Assembly: GCA_002841275.1 (NCBI GenBank)
Contig: PHET01000001.1
Location: 96,464 to 160,463, forward strand
Length of the DNA stretch: 64,000 nucleotides
Direction of reading: 5' to 3'
From: Actinobacteria bacterium HGW-Actinobacteria-7
GTDB lineage: Bacteria; Actinomycetota; Coriobacteriia; Anaerosomatales; PHET01
A model generated the notes under the pieces. The model made no database searches. It was not told where the DNA came from and saw only the letters and a list, made by a program, of their open reading frames with translations. Below are positions 15,470 through 24,421 of this stretch, in pieces. The position numbers and the translations under genes were made by a program. Position 1 is the stretch's first letter. Every line of letters begins with the position of its first letter.

Positions 15470-16440
15470 GAACTCAGATCGCCACCTGGCAGAAGCGGTA
15501 GAAGCTCGTGCAGCGCGGAGTCGATACCCGACTCGAACCTGGTCAATCCGGCTGCAGCGTGGTGACCACCCCCGTCGAACCGGCGGGCAACAGCACCAAC
15601 ATCGAATCCGGTCTTCGCGCGCAGATTCACGCGCACTTCATCGCCCCGAGCTCGCAACACCATTGCGACATCGATGTCGTCAAGAACGCGCACCGCGTCA
15701 GGAAGGAACTCCGCCTCTTCCGGTAGCGCACCCGTGGACACGAAATCGTCGTCAGCCAGCCACGTGTAGGCGACATGACCACCGTTGACCACTGACAGCC
15801 GAGACATCGCGAGCGCTTCAAGGGCCAAGGAACCGGCGGAGCGGCTCTGGTAGACGAGCCGGGCCACCTCCGAGGGGTCGGCTCCGGCATCTATCATCGC
15901 GGCGGCGTCCCGCAGCGCTGCGGATGTGGTGTTCTGATACTGGAAACGGCCGGTATCAGTGAGAAGCGCTGTATAGCAGCACAGAGCGATTTCGGCCGTC
16001 GGCTGGATATCAAGCACCTCGAGCAGCTGCCAGACAAGTTGCCCGGTCGCGGCCGCAGAAGTATCAAGCACACCAATGTTGGCGTAGCCGACACCGTCGG
16101 GATGGTGATCGATGACTATCAGCGTCTCGGCACGCTCGGCGAGGTCCCGTGCGATCCCCAGCCGCTCAGGCACAGGTGTGTCCAACGCGACGAAGACTGC
16201 AGGTGGCTCCAGGTCGGCCGCCGGGGTGTACAGCCCGAATCCCGGCAGCCATTCATAGGTCTTTGACGGCTCGCGATCGTCAGCGAGAGTGGGAATCGCT
16301 GCAATGCCCAAAGACCGCAACGCAAGCGTCAGTCCGAGGACCGACCCGACTGCATCTCCATCCGGGCGGACGTGAGCGCAGATTACCACCGACGAGGCAC
16401 GTCGCAAGGCCACAGCGGCGTGGTGGAGAGCAGCCTTCAA
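15466..16440 (-). CDS. nrnA: DHH/DHHA1 phosphoesterase (NrnA-type oligoribonuclease / pAp phosphatase)
   Basis: This 324-residue protein has DHH motif I (HVRPDGDAVGS, from residue 23), the DHH motif proper in VIDHHPDG, and a C-terminal DHHA1 domain ending in FDGGGHHAAAG. Family members degrade nano-RNAs or dephosphorylate 3'-phosphoadenosine 5'-phosphate; some actinobacterial ones hydrolyse cyclic dinucleotides, so the exact substrate is uncertain. The start is TTG (16438-16440) with AGAGGT nine bases upstream. The place between rbfA and truB is common in bacteria and ties it to RNA metabolism. Confidence 0.9.
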   Translation of the reverse strand: MKAALHHAAVALRRASSVVICAHVRPDGDAVGSVLGLTLALRSLGIAAIPTLADDREPSKTYEWLPGFGLYTPAADLEPPAVFVALDTPVPERLGIARDLAERAETLIVIDHHPDGVGYANIGVLDTSAAATGQLVWQLLEVLDIQPTAEIALCCYTALLTDTGRFQYQNTTSAALRDAAAMIDAGADPSEVARLVYQSRSAGSLALEALAMSRLSVVNGGHVAYTWLADDDFVSTGALPEEAEFLPDAVRVLDDIDVAMVLRARGDEVRVNLRAKTGFDVGAVARRFDGGGHHAAAGLTRFESGIDSALHELLPLLPGGDLSS

Positions 16441-16445
16441 CAGCG

Positions 16446-16838
16446 CTATACCTCTTCATCCTCGTCGACACTGGGCTGCGCGCCCTCGCCATCGACAAGG
16501 GTCGGTGGAATGTGCGTGAGTGCCTCTGCCATCTTAGCGCCTGCATCAACACTCTCGTCGATGAAGAACCGGAGCTCGGGTGTGACTCTCCACCCGACAC
16601 TCCTGCCCAACATCGACCGAACACGTCCACGCGCGGACTCGAGTCCGGCCAGAACTTCCTCATAACGCTCGGGGCTCGCGCTCACATACACGCTGGCCAC
16701 GCTGCGATCCGGGCTTACCTTCGCACCGGTGACCGTGACCAGCATCAAACGCGGGTCCGAGACCTCGACCGCCAGTATTTCAGCAACTGCCTCGCGCACC
16801 TTCTCGTCCATGCGCCGGCCAAATGATTCGCGACTCAC
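16446..16838 (-). CDS. rbfA: Ribosome-binding factor A
   Basis: This 130-residue KH-like-fold protein binds the 30S subunit and helps mature the 5' end of 16S rRNA. The pattern includes an N-terminal RMDEKVREAVAEIL segment, the VSPDRSVASVYVS core and ELRFFIDESVDAG near the end. A short acidic tail closes the protein. It begins 9 bases after infB in the canonical nusA-infB-rbfA-truB order. Confidence 0.95.
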   Translation of the reverse strand: MSRESFGRRMDEKVREAVAEILAVEVSDPRLMLVTVTGAKVSPDRSVASVYVSASPERYEEVLAGLESARGRVRSMLGRSVGWRVTPELRFFIDESVDAGAKMAEALTHIPPTLVDGEGAQPSVDEDEEV

Positions 16839-16847
16839 AACTGCCTC

Positions 16848-19388
16848 CTAGGCCTCGCGGGCCACCTCGATGACCTTAAAGCCTTCGATGATGTCGCCTT
16901 CCTTGAGATCCTGGAAACCGTCGATGGATATCCCGCATTCATAGCCGGACTTGACGGTCTTGACGTCATCTTTGAACCGGCGCAGTGACGACATCTTGCC
17001 CTCATGCACGACGGTACCATCGCGGACGATACGAATCTGGTCGTCTCGGGTGATCTCACCCTCCTGCACGTAGCAACCAGCAATGACGCCGGCCTTGGGA
17101 ACACGGAACAGCTCGCGTACTTCCACCCGCGCCGTATCCTTCTCCACGAAATCAGGAGCAAGCATGCCCACGCGTGCGGCATTGATCTCTTCGATGGCCT
17201 GATAGATGACACGATAGAGACGGATGTCGACCTTCTCGGTCTCCGCAAGGGACTTCGCCTGCGGCGTCGGCCTCACGTTGAAGCCGATGACGATCGCGTC
17301 TGATGCATCTGCGAGCATGACATCGGACTCCGAGATGGCACCGACGGCGGAGTGGATCACGTTGATGCGGACCTCGGTCTGGTCCATCTTGTCGAGTGCA
17401 TCCTTGAGCGCCTCGATCGAGCCATGAACGTCCGCCTTGACGACGAGATTCAGTTCCCTGAGTTCACCCTCGGCGATACGATCAAACAGGTCGTCGAGGC
17501 TGACGTGGCGTTTGGTGGCGGCCTGATCGACCAGACGCTGCTTGAGAGCCCGCTCCTCAGCCAGATTGCGAGCATCCCGCTCGTCGCTGAACACGCGGAA
17601 CTCGTCACCGGCGCTAGGGACATTCGAGATACCGAGCACTTCGACGGGATCGGCCGGACCCGCGCTGGCTACCTTCTTACCAAGCGGATCGATAAGCGCA
17701 CGCACACGGCCAAAGGTCGTGCCCGCCACAATGGCGTCGCCCACGCGCATGGTGCCTCTCTGGACAAGAACAGTGGCGACAGGGCCGCGACCCTTGTCGA
17801 GATTGGCCTCGATGACCACGCCCGAGGCGGTGGTATTCGGGTTGGCCTTGAGCTCAAGAATATCCGCCTGGAGAAGAACCATTTCGAGCAGACCCTCGAT
17901 GTTGATGCGCTTCTTGGCCGACACCTCGACGAAGATGTTGGTGCCACCCCACTCCTCGGGCACGATCTCGTGCTCGGTGAGCATCTGCTTGACCTGTTCC
18001 GGATTCGCGCCGTCTTTGTCGATCTTGTTGACAGCGACGATGATCGGGACTCCGGCGGCCTTCGCATGGTGGATGGCCTCGACCGTCTGCGGCATGACGC
18101 CGTCGTCGGCGGCCACAACCAGGATGACGATGTCAGTGATGTTCGCACCACGGGCGCGCATGGCAGTGAAGGCCTCGTGGCCCGGCGTGTCGATGAACGT
18201 GATCATGCGGCCGTTCTTGTGGACCACTGAAGCGCCGATGTGCTGCGTGATACCGCCAGCCTCAGTTGCCGCAACACCCGTCTCGCGAATGGCGTCAAGC
18301 AACGACGTCTTACCGTGATCGACGTGGCCCATGACGGTGACAACAGGTGACCGGGGCAACAGGTCTTCATCTTTGTCCTCGAACGTCCAGCCCATCTCTT
18401 CGGCAGGCTTGACGACGCGGACCTCACGGCCCATGTCTTCCCCGATGATCTCGATGATGTCCCGCATCATGGGCTGGTTCACCGTGAGAGGCGTACCCAG
18501 CATGAAGAGCCGCTTGATGACGTCGTTTCCGGGAACTCCGAGGAGATCTGCGAAGTCGCCAACGGTGATGCCTTCGGTGACAGTGATGGATTCGCCGCCA
18601 CTGGGCAGTTCAACGTGGGTCGCCTCGTCGTGGAGGCGTGCCTCTTCGACCTCTTCGCCGGACTTCTTGTGCTTCTTCTTCTTCTTGCGACCGCCCTCGG
18701 CCTGCGCGGCGGCGACCGCCGCCTTGGCCTCTTCGATGACCTTATCGCGCTGCAGCTGTTCGGCCTCAACGGCCATCTTGCGGTAGCGCTCCTCCTCGGC
18801 CTTCTCGAGTTTGGCAGCCTTCTCAGCACCGAGTCTAGCGGACTCGGCTGCAATCGCAGCCTCAAGCGGGCTGAGCTCAGCCGCCGCCACAGGCTCCTCG
18901 GGCTCGACCACGGGAGCATCGACCACAGGTTCCGGTACAGGCTCGACTACGGTCTGGACCTCGATCTGAGCACGCGCATCCGCGGTCTCGGCCTCTTCGC
19001 GGGCGACCTGCTCGATCTCCGCGCGCTTGCGTGCCTCTTCCTCGAGGCGACGCTGCTCTTCCTCGCGCGCCTTGCGATCAGCCTCCCGCGCCTTGCGCTC
19101 GGCGTCTTCGGCCTTGCGGCGAGACTCCTCCTCGGTCTTACGACGAGCCTCTTCCTCCGCCAGCCGGACGGCGTCCTCGGCCTCTTTCACGTGGCGCTCG
19201 TTCTCGATTGCGGACTGGCGCTCCGCGATCTCGGGTCCGAGTTCCTTGCGGATCTTGTCGACGTAGGCCTCGACCAGCGTGGAAGCATGGTTCTTCGCCG
19301 GTATCTTCATATCGGCGAGCCGGTCGATCAGCTCCTTGCTTGACATACCGAACTCTTTGGCGAGTTCGTGGACTCTCATACTCGGCAT
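16848..19388 (-). CDS. infB: Translation initiation factor IF-2
   Basis: This 846-residue GTPase brings initiator tRNA to the 30S subunit and promotes subunit joining. It starts with the IF2_N three-helix module (MRVHELAKEFG), followed by about 180 residues of charged Glu/Ala/Arg coiled coil, a lysine-rich patch (residues about 235-243) and a second IF2_N module. The G domain has GHVDHGKTS near residue 353, then domains II, III and C2. Two ATGs lie nine bases apart; I take the first, which sits closest to GGGAGAG. YlxQ, present between ylxR and infB in Bacillus, is absent. Confidence 0.97.
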   Translation of the reverse strand: MPSMRVHELAKEFGMSSKELIDRLADMKIPAKNHASTLVEAYVDKIRKELGPEIAERQSAIENERHVKEAEDAVRLAEEEARRKTEEESRRKAEDAERKAREADRKAREEEQRRLEEEARKRAEIEQVAREEAETADARAQIEVQTVVEPVPEPVVDAPVVEPEEPVAAAELSPLEAAIAAESARLGAEKAAKLEKAEEERYRKMAVEAEQLQRDKVIEEAKAAVAAAQAEGGRKKKKKHKKSGEEVEEARLHDEATHVELPSGGESITVTEGITVGDFADLLGVPGNDVIKRLFMLGTPLTVNQPMMRDIIEIIGEDMGREVRVVKPAEEMGWTFEDKDEDLLPRSPVVTVMGHVDHGKTSLLDAIRETGVAATEAGGITQHIGASVVHKNGRMITFIDTPGHEAFTAMRARGANITDIVILVVAADDGVMPQTVEAIHHAKAAGVPIIVAVNKIDKDGANPEQVKQMLTEHEIVPEEWGGTNIFVEVSAKKRINIEGLLEMVLLQADILELKANPNTTASGVVIEANLDKGRGPVATVLVQRGTMRVGDAIVAGTTFGRVRALIDPLGKKVASAGPADPVEVLGISNVPSAGDEFRVFSDERDARNLAEERALKQRLVDQAATKRHVSLDDLFDRIAEGELRELNLVVKADVHGSIEALKDALDKMDQTEVRINVIHSAVGAISESDVMLADASDAIVIGFNVRPTPQAKSLAETEKVDIRLYRVIYQAIEEINAARVGMLAPDFVEKDTARVEVRELFRVPKAGVIAGCYVQEGEITRDDQIRIVRDGTVVHEGKMSSLRRFKDDVKTVKSGYECGISIDGFQDLKEGDIIEGFKVIEVAREA

Positions 19389-19396
19389 ACTCTAGG

Positions 19397-19696
19397 TCAC
19401 TCTCCCTGCTTCGGGTCTCTGCTGGCGAGGAGCCCGTCGAAGTCACGTCGTAGTCTCAAGTAGTCGTCGTCTTGCATTCTCACCCGAAGCGCCGAGTCCA
19501 ACTTGCGGCGCCTTCGCGCCAACTCGAAACAGTCCGGGTCCACGCACAGGTACGCCCCACGCCCGTCAGCCTTGCCGCTCGCGTCGAGCTCAACATGGCC
19601 TTCCGGCGTACGCACGAATCGAACCAGTTCCCGCTTCGTCGAAGCGGCACCACAACCGGTACAGGTTCGCGTGGGAACCTTGCGTGGTTTCATCAC
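19397..19696 (-). CDS. rnpM: YlxR family RNase P modulator RnpM
   Basis: This 99-residue DUF448 protein has the N-terminal signature RTCTGCG, the LVRFVR strand and GRGAYLC. YlxR of Bacillus has been described as an RNA-binding RNase P modulator (RnpM). The ATG overlaps the nusA stop as ATGA, so translation is coupled. A second cysteine pair (LCVDPDC) together with CTGC could hold a metal ion, though many family members lack part of this set. Confidence 0.93.
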   Translation of the reverse strand: MMKPRKVPTRTCTGCGAASTKRELVRFVRTPEGHVELDASGKADGRGAYLCVDPDCFELARRRRKLDSALRVRMQDDDYLRLRRDFDGLLASRDPKQGE

Positions 19697-20853
19697 TCGG
19701 CGGCGGCCTCCTTCTCGTGCAGGCCACAGTAGTAGCCGCCCGGACGTGCCTGGTTGCGACAGCGAATACCTGATGAAGTGACCGCGCAGCAGCGGCCATC
19801 GAACTCCTCGCCAGCCTCCTTGGGCTCACCTGAGCTCGTGGAGATGCCCTGCTCAGCGGCGGTAGCGGCGCTCTTGATGTCGATACGCCATCCGGTCAGC
19901 TTCGCCGCGAGGCGGGCGTTCTGACCTTCCTTGCCGATTGCAAGGGAGAGTTGGTCGTTGGGAACGATGACCGTCGCGGTGTGCGAGTCGGCATCGACAA
20001 GAACGCGGTCCACCTTGGCTGGAGACAACGAGCTGGCGACGTATGCCGCCGGCTCCTCGTTCCACGGGATGACGTCGATACGCTCACCGCGCAGTTCGCC
20101 CACGATCATGCGGACTCTGCTGCCCTTGGGGCCGACGCACGCCCCAACCGGGTCGAGCCCGGACTCTCGGCTCGACACAGCCACCTTGGAACGGGCACCG
20201 GCCTCGCGAGCAACGCTCTTGATTTCGACGATGCCGTCATAGACCTCGGGCACCTCGATCTCGAAGAGGCGACGAATCAGGCCCGGGTGGGTACGCGATA
20301 CGACGATCGAAGGCTCGGAGCCCTGGCCCCGCCGTACTTCGATGATGTAGGCCTTGATGCGTTCGTTATGGTTGTAGCGCTCGTTGTTGGGCTGCTCACC
20401 TGGCGGAAGTAGCGCCTCGACGCCCTCGCGCAACTTGATCAGCGTGTAGCGCGAGTCGCTCTGCTGAACGGTGCCGGTAACGCTCTCTCCGATGCGGTCC
20501 GCATACTCCTCGAAGATCCGCTCACGCTCGGCGTCACGAATGATCGACGTTATCACGCTCTTCGCATTCTGCGCGGCGATACGGGAGACATCCGCCGGTG
20601 TGACGTCGCGCTCCTCATATTCGGGCTCTTCGCCGGCCTCTTCGTCCCACTCGCCCACAGGGACGAGTTCGTAGACGTAGATACGGCCGCTCTCGCGGTC
20701 GATCGTGACCCTTGTGAGATTGTCGAGGTCGAGAATCCGCTGATACGTGTGCGCCAGCGACTGCTCGAGTTTGTCGAGCATGTCGTACTCGTCGATGCCC
20801 TTCTCCTGCGCAAGTACACGCAGCGCATCCATCACATTAAGCTCGGAGCTCAT
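19693..20853 (-). CDS. nusA: Transcription factor NusA with extra C-terminal Cys/His module
   Basis: This 386-residue factor controls pausing, termination and antitermination. Domains in order are the N-terminal RNAP-binding domain (1 to about 125), S1 (about 130-200) and two KH domains (about 200-345). The GPKGSRVRMIVGEL and AIGKEGQNARLAAKLTGW motifs are clear. There are no acidic AR repeats. After an acidic linker the protein adds about 32 residues (355-386) with the pattern C-x2-T-x2-G-x2-C-x10-C-x2-H, not part of standard NusA. This looks like a small zinc-binding peptide. The gene abuts rimP and overlaps rnpM. Confidence 0.96.
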   Translation of the reverse strand: MSSELNVMDALRVLAQEKGIDEYDMLDKLEQSLAHTYQRILDLDNLTRVTIDRESGRIYVYELVPVGEWDEEAGEEPEYEERDVTPADVSRIAAQNAKSVITSIIRDAERERIFEEYADRIGESVTGTVQQSDSRYTLIKLREGVEALLPPGEQPNNERYNHNERIKAYIIEVRRGQGSEPSIVVSRTHPGLIRRLFEIEVPEVYDGIVEIKSVAREAGARSKVAVSSRESGLDPVGACVGPKGSRVRMIVGELRGERIDVIPWNEEPAAYVASSLSPAKVDRVLVDADSHTATVIVPNDQLSLAIGKEGQNARLAAKLTGWRIDIKSAATAAEQGISTSSGEPKEAGEEFDGRCCAVTSSGIRCRNQARPGGYYCGLHEKEAAAE

Positions 20854-21342
20854 TTACGAGGCGCCCCTTTCTTGGTTGAAACTCACGACGCCCTTGAGGC
20901 GTGCCTTCTGGACAGAATCAAGCGGGATGCGCACGTGCTCGTCATCTACCTCGAGCACGACGTCGCTCCCTTCCACGCCAACGAGCCGACCGCTCCACGA
21001 ACTGCGCTCCGAACCGGGTGCGTGGATCTTCACGCTGATAGTCTCGCCCGCAAAACGTTCGAAGTGCTCTCTTGTTCGAAGCGGACGATCCACACCGGGA
21101 GATGACACTTCCAGCGTATACGAACCGGCTATTGGATCCGCCTCGTCGATCGCCTCGGAGACCCAGGCGTTCGCAGCGCAGATCGCATCGATATCAAGGT
21201 CGTCCTCACAGTCCAGAAGTACCCGAATGACGGTGGACTTATGTCCCCCGGACTGCTCAACAGCCACGAGCTCGAAGCCGTGCTCGATCGCAAGCGGTTC
21301 GAGAAGCGTCGTGAGCTTCTCCACCAGATCGTTTCGTCCCAT
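20854..21342 (-). CDS. rimP: Ribosome maturation factor RimP
   Basis: This 162-residue 30S assembly factor acts early in subunit maturation. The N-terminal alpha/beta domain contains the GHKSTVIRVLLD strand and the SPGVDRPL signature, followed by an SH3-like C-terminal domain. The ATG at 21340-21342 is preceded by the strong ribosome site AAGGAGGTGA. It is the first gene of the rimP-nusA-rnpM-infB-rbfA-nrnA-truB-ribF operon. Its leader carries a terminator-like hairpin. Confidence 0.95.
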   Translation of the reverse strand: MGRNDLVEKLTTLLEPLAIEHGFELVAVEQSGGHKSTVIRVLLDCEDDLDIDAICAANAWVSEAIDEADPIAGSYTLEVSSPGVDRPLRTREHFERFAGETISVKIHAPGSERSSWSGRLVGVEGSDVVLEVDDEHVRIPLDSVQKARLKGVVSFNQERGAS

Positions 21343-21370
21343 TCGGTCACCTCCTTACCCGCAGAACAAA

Positions 21371-21394
21371 AGAAGCGAGCGTAAGCCCACTTCT
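21371..21394 (-). terminator. Terminator-like hairpin in the rimP leader (attenuator candidate)
   Basis: On the minus strand AGAAGTGGGC, loop TTAC, GCTCGCTTCT forms a 10-bp stem (with two G-U pairs), followed directly by TTTGTTCT. It lies downstream of the putative rimP promoter and only 29 bases before the rimP ATG, so it belongs to the operon leader and is not the proS terminator. In B. subtilis a NusA-dependent leader terminator is reported to autoregulate this operon; the same logic is inferred here. Confidence 0.7.
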
Positions 21395-21424
21395 CGCAAG
21401 ACGACAGATTCACATGCTCGACGG

Positions 21425-21452
21425 ATTCTACCACAGGAGGAGCGCGGTTCAA
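21425..21452 (-). promoter_or_regulatory. Promoter for the rimP-nusA-infB operon
   Basis: Minus-strand TTGAAC, 16-base spacer, TAGAAT, with TGG before the -10 (extended -10). Transcription would begin near 21418, giving a leader of about 75 bases that contains the hairpin at 21371-21394. Confidence 0.7.
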
Positions 21453-21515
21453 AGCAGGCCGAGAGCAAGAAACCGCCCCCAGCCGCCTATGCACCGCGAT
21501 GCCAGGCCGCCTGAC

Positions 21516-23240
21516 TCAGACGAAGCGCGCTCGCTCGCTCTCGACCATCGAAACGATCTTCTGCGCTGCCTCCGAAACCGGGAGGGTCGCACGCTCACCC
21601 GAGCCACGAACCTTCAACTCCACGATGCCTTCGGCAAGCCCCTTCTTGCCCACGACCACCTGGAAGGGCCAGCCGATGAGATCCGCGTCGTTGAACTTCA
21701 CGCCGGCACGTTCGTCTCGATCGTCGATCACCGTCTCGACACCGGCCTCGCCAAGCGCCTTCCACAGGGACTCCGCGACTTCGAAGACCTCACCGTCGGC
21801 CATCAGTGGAAGGATGGCGACCTCGAGCGGCGCGATTGACACGGGCCACTGGATACCGGCGTCGTCGTTGTACTGCTCGATCACAGCAGCCAAAGAGCGA
21901 CTGACACCCACGCCGTAACACCCCATGACGAACGGCTGCTCTTCGCCATTCTCGTCCGAGAAGGTCGCACCCATAGCCTCCGAGTAGCGTGTGCCCAGCT
22001 GGAACACCTGACTCACTTCGATACCTCGTGCGCCTTCGAGTACCGCGCCACACTCGGGGCATCGGTCGCCTGGTGCAGCAACCACCAGATCTGCCCACTG
22101 GCCGACCTCGAAATCACGCCCGGGTAGCGCGCCGAACAGATGGAACCCATCTTCGTTCGCGCCCACGGCCCACGCAACGTCGTCCTTGAGACACACGTCA
22201 GCAACCACGAGCGTGCCAGGCAGGGTGTTAACGGGACCCAAGGAGCCCTTGGGTATCCCGTACTTCTCAAAGTCCGTCTCGTCGAGCAGTTCCACGCCCT
22301 CGACCGCCCAAGCGGCCTTGACCGCGTTGAGTTCGCGATCGCCCGGAACGCAGAAGAACACCAGCGTGCCCTCCGGGGTCTTGCCAGCCATCGTCTTGAC
22401 GGTGTCATGTTCGGAAACTCCAAACGCACCCGCCAGATCGGCTATCGTCTTGAGCCCCGGCGTGGCCCGCTTCTCCATGGAGACGGCCTCGGTGATCGAC
22501 GGTATGCGAACCACGGTCGTCTCGGCAGCTTCGACGTTGGCGGCGAACCCACACGTGCAGTGCACCAATTCCGCCTCGCCTGCCTCAGCCAACGCCATGA
22601 ACTCGGTGGTCACCTTACCGCCGATCTGGCCCGACTCGGCCACCACTGGACGATACTCGAGTCCAAGTCGCTCACAGATGCGGCCGTAGGCACCAGCCTG
22701 CGCGTCGTAATGCTCCTGGAGCGACTCCTGTGAGGTGTGAAAGCTATAGGCGTCCTTCATGATGAACTCACGACCACGCAGCAGGCCGAAACGCGGACGG
22801 ATCTCGTCGCGGAACTTCATATTGATCTGGTAGAAGGACAGCGGCAGCTCACGGTAGCTCCGAACGTCGCTGCGCACCAGGGCGGTGATGATCTCTTCGT
22901 GAGTGGGTCCAAGGCAGAATTCGCGGCCGTGGCGGTCCTTTAGCCTTGCAAGCTCCGGACCGTACAGATCCCAGCGGCCCGACTCGGTCCACAACTCCGC
23001 AGGCTGCACGATGGGCAGCAAGACCTCTTGGGAGCCGATCGCGTCCATCTCCTCACGCACGATCCTCTCGATCTTCGCAATCGAGCGCAGACCCAGGGGC
23101 AGAAACGAGTAGATGCCGCTGGCGGCCTTGCGGATCATGCCCGCACGCAGCAACAGCCGGTGCGATGCGAGTTCGGCCTCGGTCGGATCCTCTTTGAGTG
23201 TGGGGACGTAAAGTGAGCTCATCCGGAATGCGACGGTCAT
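21516..23240 (-). CDS. proS: Prolyl-tRNA synthetase (bacterial type, with editing domain)
   Basis: This 574-residue class II synthetase charges tRNA-Pro. Visible are the N-terminal RKAASGIYSFLPLG segment, motif 2 (IRPRFGLLRGREFIMKDAY, residues about 130-150), a YbaK-type editing insertion in the middle, motif 3 (GCYGVGVSRSLAA) and the anticodon-binding domain. The frame extends to 23330, but the ATG at 23238-23240 with GGAGAGA just upstream is preferred. The next in-frame ATG at 23220-23222 is possible. PolC, which follows proS in Bacillus, is absent. Confidence 0.95.
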   Translation of the reverse strand: MTVAFRMSSLYVPTLKEDPTEAELASHRLLLRAGMIRKAASGIYSFLPLGLRSIAKIERIVREEMDAIGSQEVLLPIVQPAELWTESGRWDLYGPELARLKDRHGREFCLGPTHEEIITALVRSDVRSYRELPLSFYQINMKFRDEIRPRFGLLRGREFIMKDAYSFHTSQESLQEHYDAQAGAYGRICERLGLEYRPVVAESGQIGGKVTTEFMALAEAGEAELVHCTCGFAANVEAAETTVVRIPSITEAVSMEKRATPGLKTIADLAGAFGVSEHDTVKTMAGKTPEGTLVFFCVPGDRELNAVKAAWAVEGVELLDETDFEKYGIPKGSLGPVNTLPGTLVVADVCLKDDVAWAVGANEDGFHLFGALPGRDFEVGQWADLVVAAPGDRCPECGAVLEGARGIEVSQVFQLGTRYSEAMGATFSDENGEEQPFVMGCYGVGVSRSLAAVIEQYNDDAGIQWPVSIAPLEVAILPLMADGEVFEVAESLWKALGEAGVETVIDDRDERAGVKFNDADLIGWPFQVVVGKKGLAEGIVELKVRGSGERATLPVSEAAQKIVSMVESERARFV

Positions 23241-23315
23241 TCGATCTCTCCAGTCAGTACGCGAAGCGAAGCCGGGTGCGGCCCGTTCACGATCGGTCAG
23301 TTCACTGTGATGCGT

Positions 23316-23324
23316 AGGATAGCA
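23316..23324 (-). promoter_or_regulatory. Weak extended -10 candidate upstream of proS
   Basis: Minus-strand TGC-TATCCT in the 110-base gap between ispG and proS. No convincing -35 is present. It is offered only as a possible internal promoter. Confidence 0.3.
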
Positions 23325-23350
23325 GTCCACAGCGGAGCCGCGCGGAGTGC

Positions 23351-24421
23351 TCAGTCGTTTTCGCCAACCGCGCTCAACCGGGCGACCTCTTCCATGAGCG
23401 CATCGACTATCTGGGCCTCGGGCACTTTCCGAATGGGTTCGCCTTTGGCGAAGATCAACCCCAGTCCCTTGCCTGCGGCGACGCCCAAGTCCGCCTCCCG
23501 CGCCTCGCCGGGGCCGTTGACGATACAGCCCATCACCGCCACTTTGATCGGCGTGGGATGCGCGCGTAGTCGCCGTTCGACCTCCTCGGCTATAGGAATC
23601 AGGTCCACCTCACAACGGCCGCATGTCGGGCAGCTGATGAGTTCAGGTGAGTTGCGACGGATGTCGAGCGCGCCAAGGATCTCCCAGCCCACACGGACCT
23701 CCTCGACTGGGGATGCGGTCAGCGACACACGGAGCGTGTCGCCGATTCCCTCACCAAGCAGAATCCCCAGACCGACCGACGACTTGACCGTTCCCGAGAA
23801 CGCCGTCCCGGCCTCTGTCACCCCGATGTGAAGCGGATACGGGATAGCGTCGGCGAGTCTGCGATACGCCTCAACGGTCGCCAGAACGCTCGACGCCTTC
23901 GCGGAGACAACGATGTCCGAGAACCCCCGCGACTCGAAGTGCTCGCAGAAAGCGACCGCGCTCGCGGCGAGTTTCTGGGAAAGAGGCCAGTCCAGATCGC
24001 GGTACTCCTCGGCAAGCGAACCAGCGTTGACGCCGATCCTGATGGGAATACCCGCGTTGCCTGCGGCGTCTATGACCTCGTCCACCCGACCCATGTCGCC
24101 GATATTCCCGGGATTGATGCGTAGCTTCGCGGCACCCCGACGAGTCGCCTCGATGGCCAAGCGATGATCGAAATGAATGTCAGCCACCACGGGCAGCACC
24201 GACCGCTCGCAGATCGCCTCGAACCCATCGAGAGCATCGGCTTTGGGGATGGCAACGCGTACGATCTCGCACCCGGCGCTCGCCAGATCATCGATCTGGG
24301 CAACTGTCGCATCGGGGTCACGCGTATCAGTGTTAGTCATCGACTGGACGCTCACGGGTGCGCTGGCGCCCATGCGGACCGACCCAACGCCAACGCCACG
24401 CGTCTGGCGTCTTGTGATCAC
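23351..24421 (-). CDS. ispG: 4-hydroxy-3-methylbut-2-en-1-yl diphosphate synthase (IspG/GcpE)
   Basis: This 356-residue iron-sulfur enzyme of the MEP isoprenoid pathway converts the cyclic diphosphate MEcPP to HMBPP. The N-terminal TIM-barrel opens with VQSMTNTDTRD. The C-terminal cluster-binding domain shows CPTCGRC near residue 263 and GCIVNGPGEA further on, which supply the [4Fe-4S] cysteines. It follows rseP and dxr, so two MEP-pathway steps are encoded together. A reducing partner (ferredoxin or flavodoxin) is not in the window. Confidence 0.96.
   Translation of the reverse strand: MITRRQTRGVGVGSVRMGASAPVSVQSMTNTDTRDPDATVAQIDDLASAGCEIVRVAIPKADALDGFEAICERSVLPVVADIHFDHRLAIEATRRGAAKLRINPGNIGDMGRVDEVIDAAGNAGIPIRIGVNAGSLAEEYRDLDWPLSQKLAASAVAFCEHFESRGFSDIVVSAKASSVLATVEAYRRLADAIPYPLHIGVTEAGTAFSGTVKSSVGLGILLGEGIGDTLRVSLTASPVEEVRVGWEILGALDIRRNSPELISCPTCGRCEVDLIPIAEEVERRLRAHPTPIKVAVMGCIVNGPGEAREADLGVAAGKGLGLIFAKGEPIRKVPEAQIVDALMEEVARLSAVGEND

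Follow-up and report, generated by a model that had tools for sequence, protein, structure and literature searches.

Does the NusA protein encoded at this locus end in a genuine zinc-binding module, and if so, what would such a module contact? The question arose from the window, the whole 64,000-nucleotide stretch of Actinobacteria bacterium HGW-Actinobacteria-7 DNA analysed here, in which an earlier note had read a Cys/His zinc-finger-like element at the C-terminus of NusA. Work on NusA has been confined almost wholly to proteobacteria, Bacillus and mycobacteria, all of which lack the module, so a form of the protein that is common in a further large phylum has escaped study.

A Cys3His module at the C-terminus of NusA

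The gene lies in the order rimP - nusA - ylxR - infB, which is the typical arrangement of a nusA operon. The N-terminal domain, S1 domain and two KH domains of its product stood in the expected order, and the fold matched NusA structures. The features of the gene, all on the minus strand, were as follows.

19693..20853, minus strand: nusA, 386 aa, comprising N-terminal domain, S1, KH1, KH2, acidic linker and Cys3His module (open reading frame; Pfam NusA_N, S1, KH_5 and KH_1; AlphaFold2 model)
20521..20835, minus strand: NusA N-terminal domain, residues 7-111 (PF08529, E=7.1e-16)
20323..20496, minus strand: S1 domain, residues 120-177 (PF00575, E=3.2e-4, slightly below cut-off)
20002..20202, minus strand: KH1 (KH_5), residues 218-284 (PF13184, E=4.2e-25)
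19870..19980, minus strand: KH2, residues 292-328 (PF00013, E=8.2e-5), the final part common to NusA of other phyla
19804..19869, minus strand: variable, acidic, flexible linker, residues 329-350 (pN/pS 0.78; pLDDT below 50 at 342-348)
19696..19803, minus strand: folded C-terminal module, residues 351-386, short strands followed by helix 377-385 (AlphaFold2 pLDDT)
19717..19791, minus strand: Cys3His core C-x9-C-x10-C-x2-H, residues 355-379 (no variation among 63 distinct Coriobacteriia NusA tails; synonymous codon changes only)
Ligand codons, minus strand: C355 at 19789-19791, C365 at 19759-19761, C376 at 19726-19728, H379 at 19717-19719

NusA_N (58.9 bits, cut-off 23.8), KH_5 (88.1 bits, cut-off 27) and KH_1 (22.7 bits, cut-off 21.5) exceeded their Pfam cut-offs, and the S1 domain fell marginally short (21.4 bits, cut-off 22). 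Downstream, YlxR (19397-19696, minus strand), whose start codon overlaps the end of nusA, has paired cysteines too (CTGC and CVDPDC).

Beyond KH2 and the acidic variable linker, the C-terminal sequence is GRC355CAVTSSGIRC365RNQARPGGYYC376GLH379EKEAAAE. The Cys/His module on this C-terminus is a real observation, and its position in the earlier note, residues 355-379, was confirmed; the first Cys ligand had been misassigned. The proposed motif, C-x2-T-x2-G-x2-C, starts at C356, a position that is mostly V, I, E or A in relatives, whereas the neighbouring C355 is invariant. The motif is therefore C-x9-C-x10-C-x2-H, and the Cys3His reading stands with C355 as its first member.

The same note had suggested looking for the three Cys and one His in related NusA proteins, and there they were conserved: C, G, C, C and H were invariant in 63 distinct Coriobacteriia tails. 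By the numbering of the 34-residue module, C3, G10, R12, C13, R14, N15, C24 and H27 were constant in these 63 sequences of the class, none of which failed the pattern; G362, R364, R366 and N367 were thus invariant across the class in addition to the metal ligands. A comparison of 12 NusA genes of the order gave pN/pS values of 0.26 for the module, 0.78 for the linker next to it and 0.05 for KH2, with synonymous differences only at the Cys/His codons of the module. The contrast between module and linker indicates that the module evolves under constraint. The Cys3His pattern was absent from every other open frame of at least 150 aa in the window. Three trivial origins were rejected: a chance occurrence of Cys and His, because of the constraint and the synonymous-only changes at the ligand codons; an assembly artefact, because the module is present in many independent genomes; and a frame error, because the nusA reading frame is intact.

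In an AlphaFold2 model built with 50 aligned NusA proteins, residues 351-380 scored pLDDT 86-91 and the terminus 81. The first two Cys lie among short strands, and a helix spanning 377-385 begins between C376 and H379. Linker residues 342-348 fell below 50, hence a tethered rather than docked module. Modelled alone with 40 relatives, it reached a mean pLDDT of 88.8. These models contain no zinc, and the metal site is predicted from conservation and fold, on which basis C355, C365, C376 and H379 very likely bind Zn2+.

When the fold was compared with solved structures using Foldseek, the top match in the PDB was the zinc finger of the Xenopus Mcm10 internal domain (3ebe; TM 0.76, rmsd 1.4 A over 35 columns, probability 0.82), with a non-significant E of 0.9, such values being usual for 38 residues. 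Maize Mcm10 with ssDNA (7y01) followed. Further matches, with probability near 1 and E of 0.04 or above, were to predicted viral proteins annotated as WRC and to numerous unnamed proteins of phages and giant viruses. No PDB sequence was matched significantly in profile searches with the module.

Spread of the module and its other hosts

Among the 80 best named relatives of the window NusA, 51 came from Coriobacteriia or near (metagenome-assembled genomes labelled Actinomycetota, Coriobacteriia, Anaerosomatales, Coriobacteriales or Eggerthellales) and 29 from Bacillota. The module was present in every Coriobacteriia NusA read among them and in none of the 29 from Bacillota. A profile of 18 modules matched at E<=1e-4 in 146 of 297 genomes drawn evenly from Actinomycetota and in 0 of 150 Bacillota genomes, the latter being a usable control because the same profile was positive in the former. 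DUF5763, sought in six Bacillota and 14 control genomes, gave no match, a result that is uninformative taken alone.

In a search with the whole protein, NusA was found in 289 of the 297 sampled Actinomycetota genomes, and at least 93 of the 289 had a module-bearing NusA. Among the matches listed, at least 88 alignments ran through the module and five more were recognised by direct reading; these counts are lower bounds. Loci read outside Coriobacteriia placed module-bearing NusA in at least 16 families; many other Actinomycetota NusA proteins (for example in families f26, f40 and f45) lacked the module, or their alignment ended near residue 330-350. The module, which had been noted as a peculiarity of this NusA, is therefore not special to it. 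Given its wide occurrence across families of Actinomycetota, it is old and common there.

Natural variants were also seen. In NusA of several Actinomycetota families the last pair was C-x4-H (YCGLPAH, CGIPSH) in place of C-x2-H (L189, L193, L203, L204, L210-L214, L216, L223 and L224). NusA L183 (genome G167) had Tyr for the third Cys with the remainder of the module intact, and in the complete Coriobacteriia genome G070 NusA (L208) was without the module; this natural loss offers a possible control.

The secondary matches of the NusA tail were C-termini of RpoC and bL21 from families elsewhere in this order. RpoC (beta'), 1426-1460 aa long, carried two tandem Cys3His modules at its C-terminus after an acidic linker (L032:671-4954, L036, L041 and L045-L053), and ribosomal protein bL21 carried one C-terminal module after a long Lys/Ala/Pro linker (L033, L034, L038-L040, L043, L049 and L054-L057). 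Matches of about 190 aa had been candidates for NusG; reading them showed bL21, and NusG was rejected. We collected 25 distinct modules from RpoC and 16 from bL21. When 16 genomes (12 of the order, four of the class) were searched to E=0.1, all matches better than E=1e-9 were NusA, RpoC or bL21, and the next stood at E=0.006 or worse; in the 12 closely checked genomes of the order, these three proteins were the only significant carriers. In the window's own genome the profile search found the NusA copy only, with the next match at E=0.33.

The bL21 modules most resembled those of NusA (mean best identity 0.80), in keeping with their having been copied from it, although 25 residues leave the direction unsettled. 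The cores of NusA modules had a mean net charge of +3.1 and those of RpoC and bL21 modules +1.5. Elsewhere in the phylum, the only further carriers recognised were PlsC-like acyltransferases, with a related module near the N-terminus (L190-L192, L199, L205, L217-L219, L221, L222 and L227).

Candidate roles of the module

The reading we favour, with a probability of about 0.5, is that the module is a structural zinc finger which, on its flexible tether, gives the machinery of transcription and ribosome assembly one more contact to nucleic acid. The C-terminus of NusA would be a small treble-clef-like finger joined to KH2 by the flexible acidic linker, with Zn2+ at C355, C365, C376 and H379 playing a structural role. 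Between C365 and C376, a basic loop (R-C-R-N-x-A-R) would add a contact to nucleic acid, most likely the nascent RNA exiting the polymerase, and the module would thereby extend the S1-KH1-KH2 RNA platform where E. coli NusA has AR1/AR2. Binding of nucleic acid is likely by analogy: neighbours in fold and sequence with known function (Mcm10, WRC, ET) bind nucleic acid, which makes such a contact the best guess; RNA as its ligand is our inference. The basic cores of the NusA modules support this role, as do the continuity of the module with the RNA-binding S1-KH1-KH2 face and the fact that its hosts in the order (NusA, RpoC and bL21 only) all handle RNA. Counting against it are the less basic cores in RpoC and bL21, the Foldseek E of 0.9 and the PlsC-like carriers, whose function lies outside RNA handling; moreover, bL21 and RNA polymerase are not known to be in contact.

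Since relatives have gained this module on beta' (in tandem) and on bL21 as well, it probably targets something encountered by transcribing polymerase and early 50S particle alike. A class of early 50S intermediates is without bL21, uL13 and bL20 (PMC10460392), which suggests that bL21 joins with part of domain II. Nascent rRNA would be the first candidate for a common target of the three modules, a speculative proposal. That one small zinc finger recurs on NusA, beta' and bL21, with hardly any other carrier in those genomes, amounts to a natural experiment and points to a single ligand common to all three. A bolder reading, possible though on balance unlikely, is that a single module was copied from NusA onto beta' and bL21 in this order of Coriobacteriia, giving NusA, the elongating polymerase and the early 50S particle one tag and one ligand, either nascent rRNA or one adaptor. 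If true, transcription and ribosome assembly would be physically linked in a manner specific to this lineage.

The chief rival is a protein partner, since AR1/AR2 occupy the place of the module in E. coli and AR2 binds the C-terminal domain of the polymerase alpha subunit (alpha-CTD), being autoinhibitory for NusA off the polymerase (PMC12297416). The finger would then dock on one shared protein and gather NusA, beta' and bL21 at one hub; the partner might be the alpha-CTD, another polymerase subunit, a ribosomal protein or an adaptor, and in NusA the module would replace the contact between AR2 and alpha-CTD of E. coli. The long flexible linkers in all three hosts agree with docking, and the PlsC-like carriers, which do not handle RNA, suggest that the module may serve protein contacts more generally. 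However, the nearest characterised relatives (Mcm10, WRC, HRT/ET) contact nucleic acid, and the module lacks an acidic AR-like surface, the NusA cores being basic. We consider docking possible, though on balance unlikely.

A passive role was judged improbable. A mobile DUF5763-type module gained at the C-terminus, with no important function of its own, would account for its loss in G070 and the Tyr substitution in L183, and similar modules do occur in phage families; but a hitch-hiker sits poorly with the low pN/pS of the module relative to its linker, with its persistence throughout almost all of Coriobacteriia and in many further families, and with its independent spread to RpoC and bL21. 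Still less probable was the suggestion, also made in the earlier note, that the tail senses zinc or redox state. Loss of zinc or oxidation under stress would alter NusA activity, or modules on abundant machinery would act as a zinc store. From general knowledge, Cys3His sites can be labile and the carriers are abundant proteins, yet conservation extends well beyond the ligands, as is typical when a role is structural or lies in binding, and sensing by the NusA module found no support. Nor did the proposed autoregulation of nusA through its leader: Rfam returned no known RNA at window positions 16000-24000, and a leader of known riboswitch type was not supported.

Across much of Actinomycetota, then, an ancient transcription factor bears a very small zinc finger of familiar type, a combination undescribed as far as we found; its recurrence on beta' and bL21 is striking. 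No published description of a zinc tail on NusA, RpoC or bL21 turned up, which is weak evidence given incomplete literature coverage.

Comparison with known NusA proteins and zinc fingers

The NusA proteins of E. coli, B. subtilis, Mycobacterium tuberculosis and Thermotoga share the core of N-terminal domain, S1, KH1 and KH2. They differ after it: E. coli has AR1/AR2, the others compared have short or acidic tails, and none has a Cys/His module. Solved NusA chains aligned to residue ~334 at most, none covering the module (E. coli chains to residue 328 only, the M. tuberculosis chain to residue 332), and the tail of the window NusA gave no AR-type Pfam match. The statement that standard NusA has nothing like the module was thus borne out in Bacillota NusA and in solved NusA structures.

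The resemblance to DUF5763 (PF19067) proposed in the earlier note was supported. This family has the same C-x9-C...C-x2-H pattern, with C-x6-G-x2-C and YC-x2-H, and residues 3-30 of the module aligned to positions 4-30 of its 39-position model with the Cys3His ligands in register. In the Pfam search of the tail, the module alone matched at E=0.0085 (17.2 bits; 10.5 bits in full NusA), under the family's gathering cut-off of 26.3; indeed the window copy fell below every curated profile cut-off. In an alignment of 12 related modules, DUF5763 (best E=1.1e-6) and zf-TRM13_CCCH matched 12/12, zf-primase 10/12 and WRC 6/12. We found no paper mentioning DUF5763, within incomplete literature coverage.

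Comparable short Cys/His modules occur in the GvpO halophile-type N-terminal domain (NF045806), the HGGxSTG domain (NF041373), a phage terminase small subunit (phrog_10899) and zf-TRM13_CCCH (PF11722). The related modules matched these at E of about 1e-6 to 1e-3, below curated cut-offs where such are given, and the host proteins are unrelated. A tblastn search of the NusA tail against phage records found nothing.

Among fingers of known function, the WRC (PF08879) and HRT-ET fingers of plant growth-regulating factors and EFFECTOR OF TRANSCRIPTION have identical ligand spacing. CX9CX10CX2H defines the plant WRC/HRT DNA-binding C3H finger (PMC7380329), and within the HRT family the ET repeats are zinc- and DNA-binding elements (PMC6585611). 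Unlike the NusA module, these fingers belong to eukaryotic DNA-binding transcription factors with QLQ or GIY-YIG domains; the WRC matches of related modules were weak (best E=0.0023), and the window copy had no match to this profile at E up to 10. The CCCH finger of the Mcm10 internal domain (zf-primase, PF09329; 3ebe, 7y01) has the same Cys3His ligands and gives the best, though not significant, solved fold match beside the zf-primase profile matches. It differs from the NusA module in that it packs on an OB fold and is part of the eukaryotic replisome; OB fold and CCCH finger of Mcm10 jointly bind ssDNA and dsDNA (PMC5333062).
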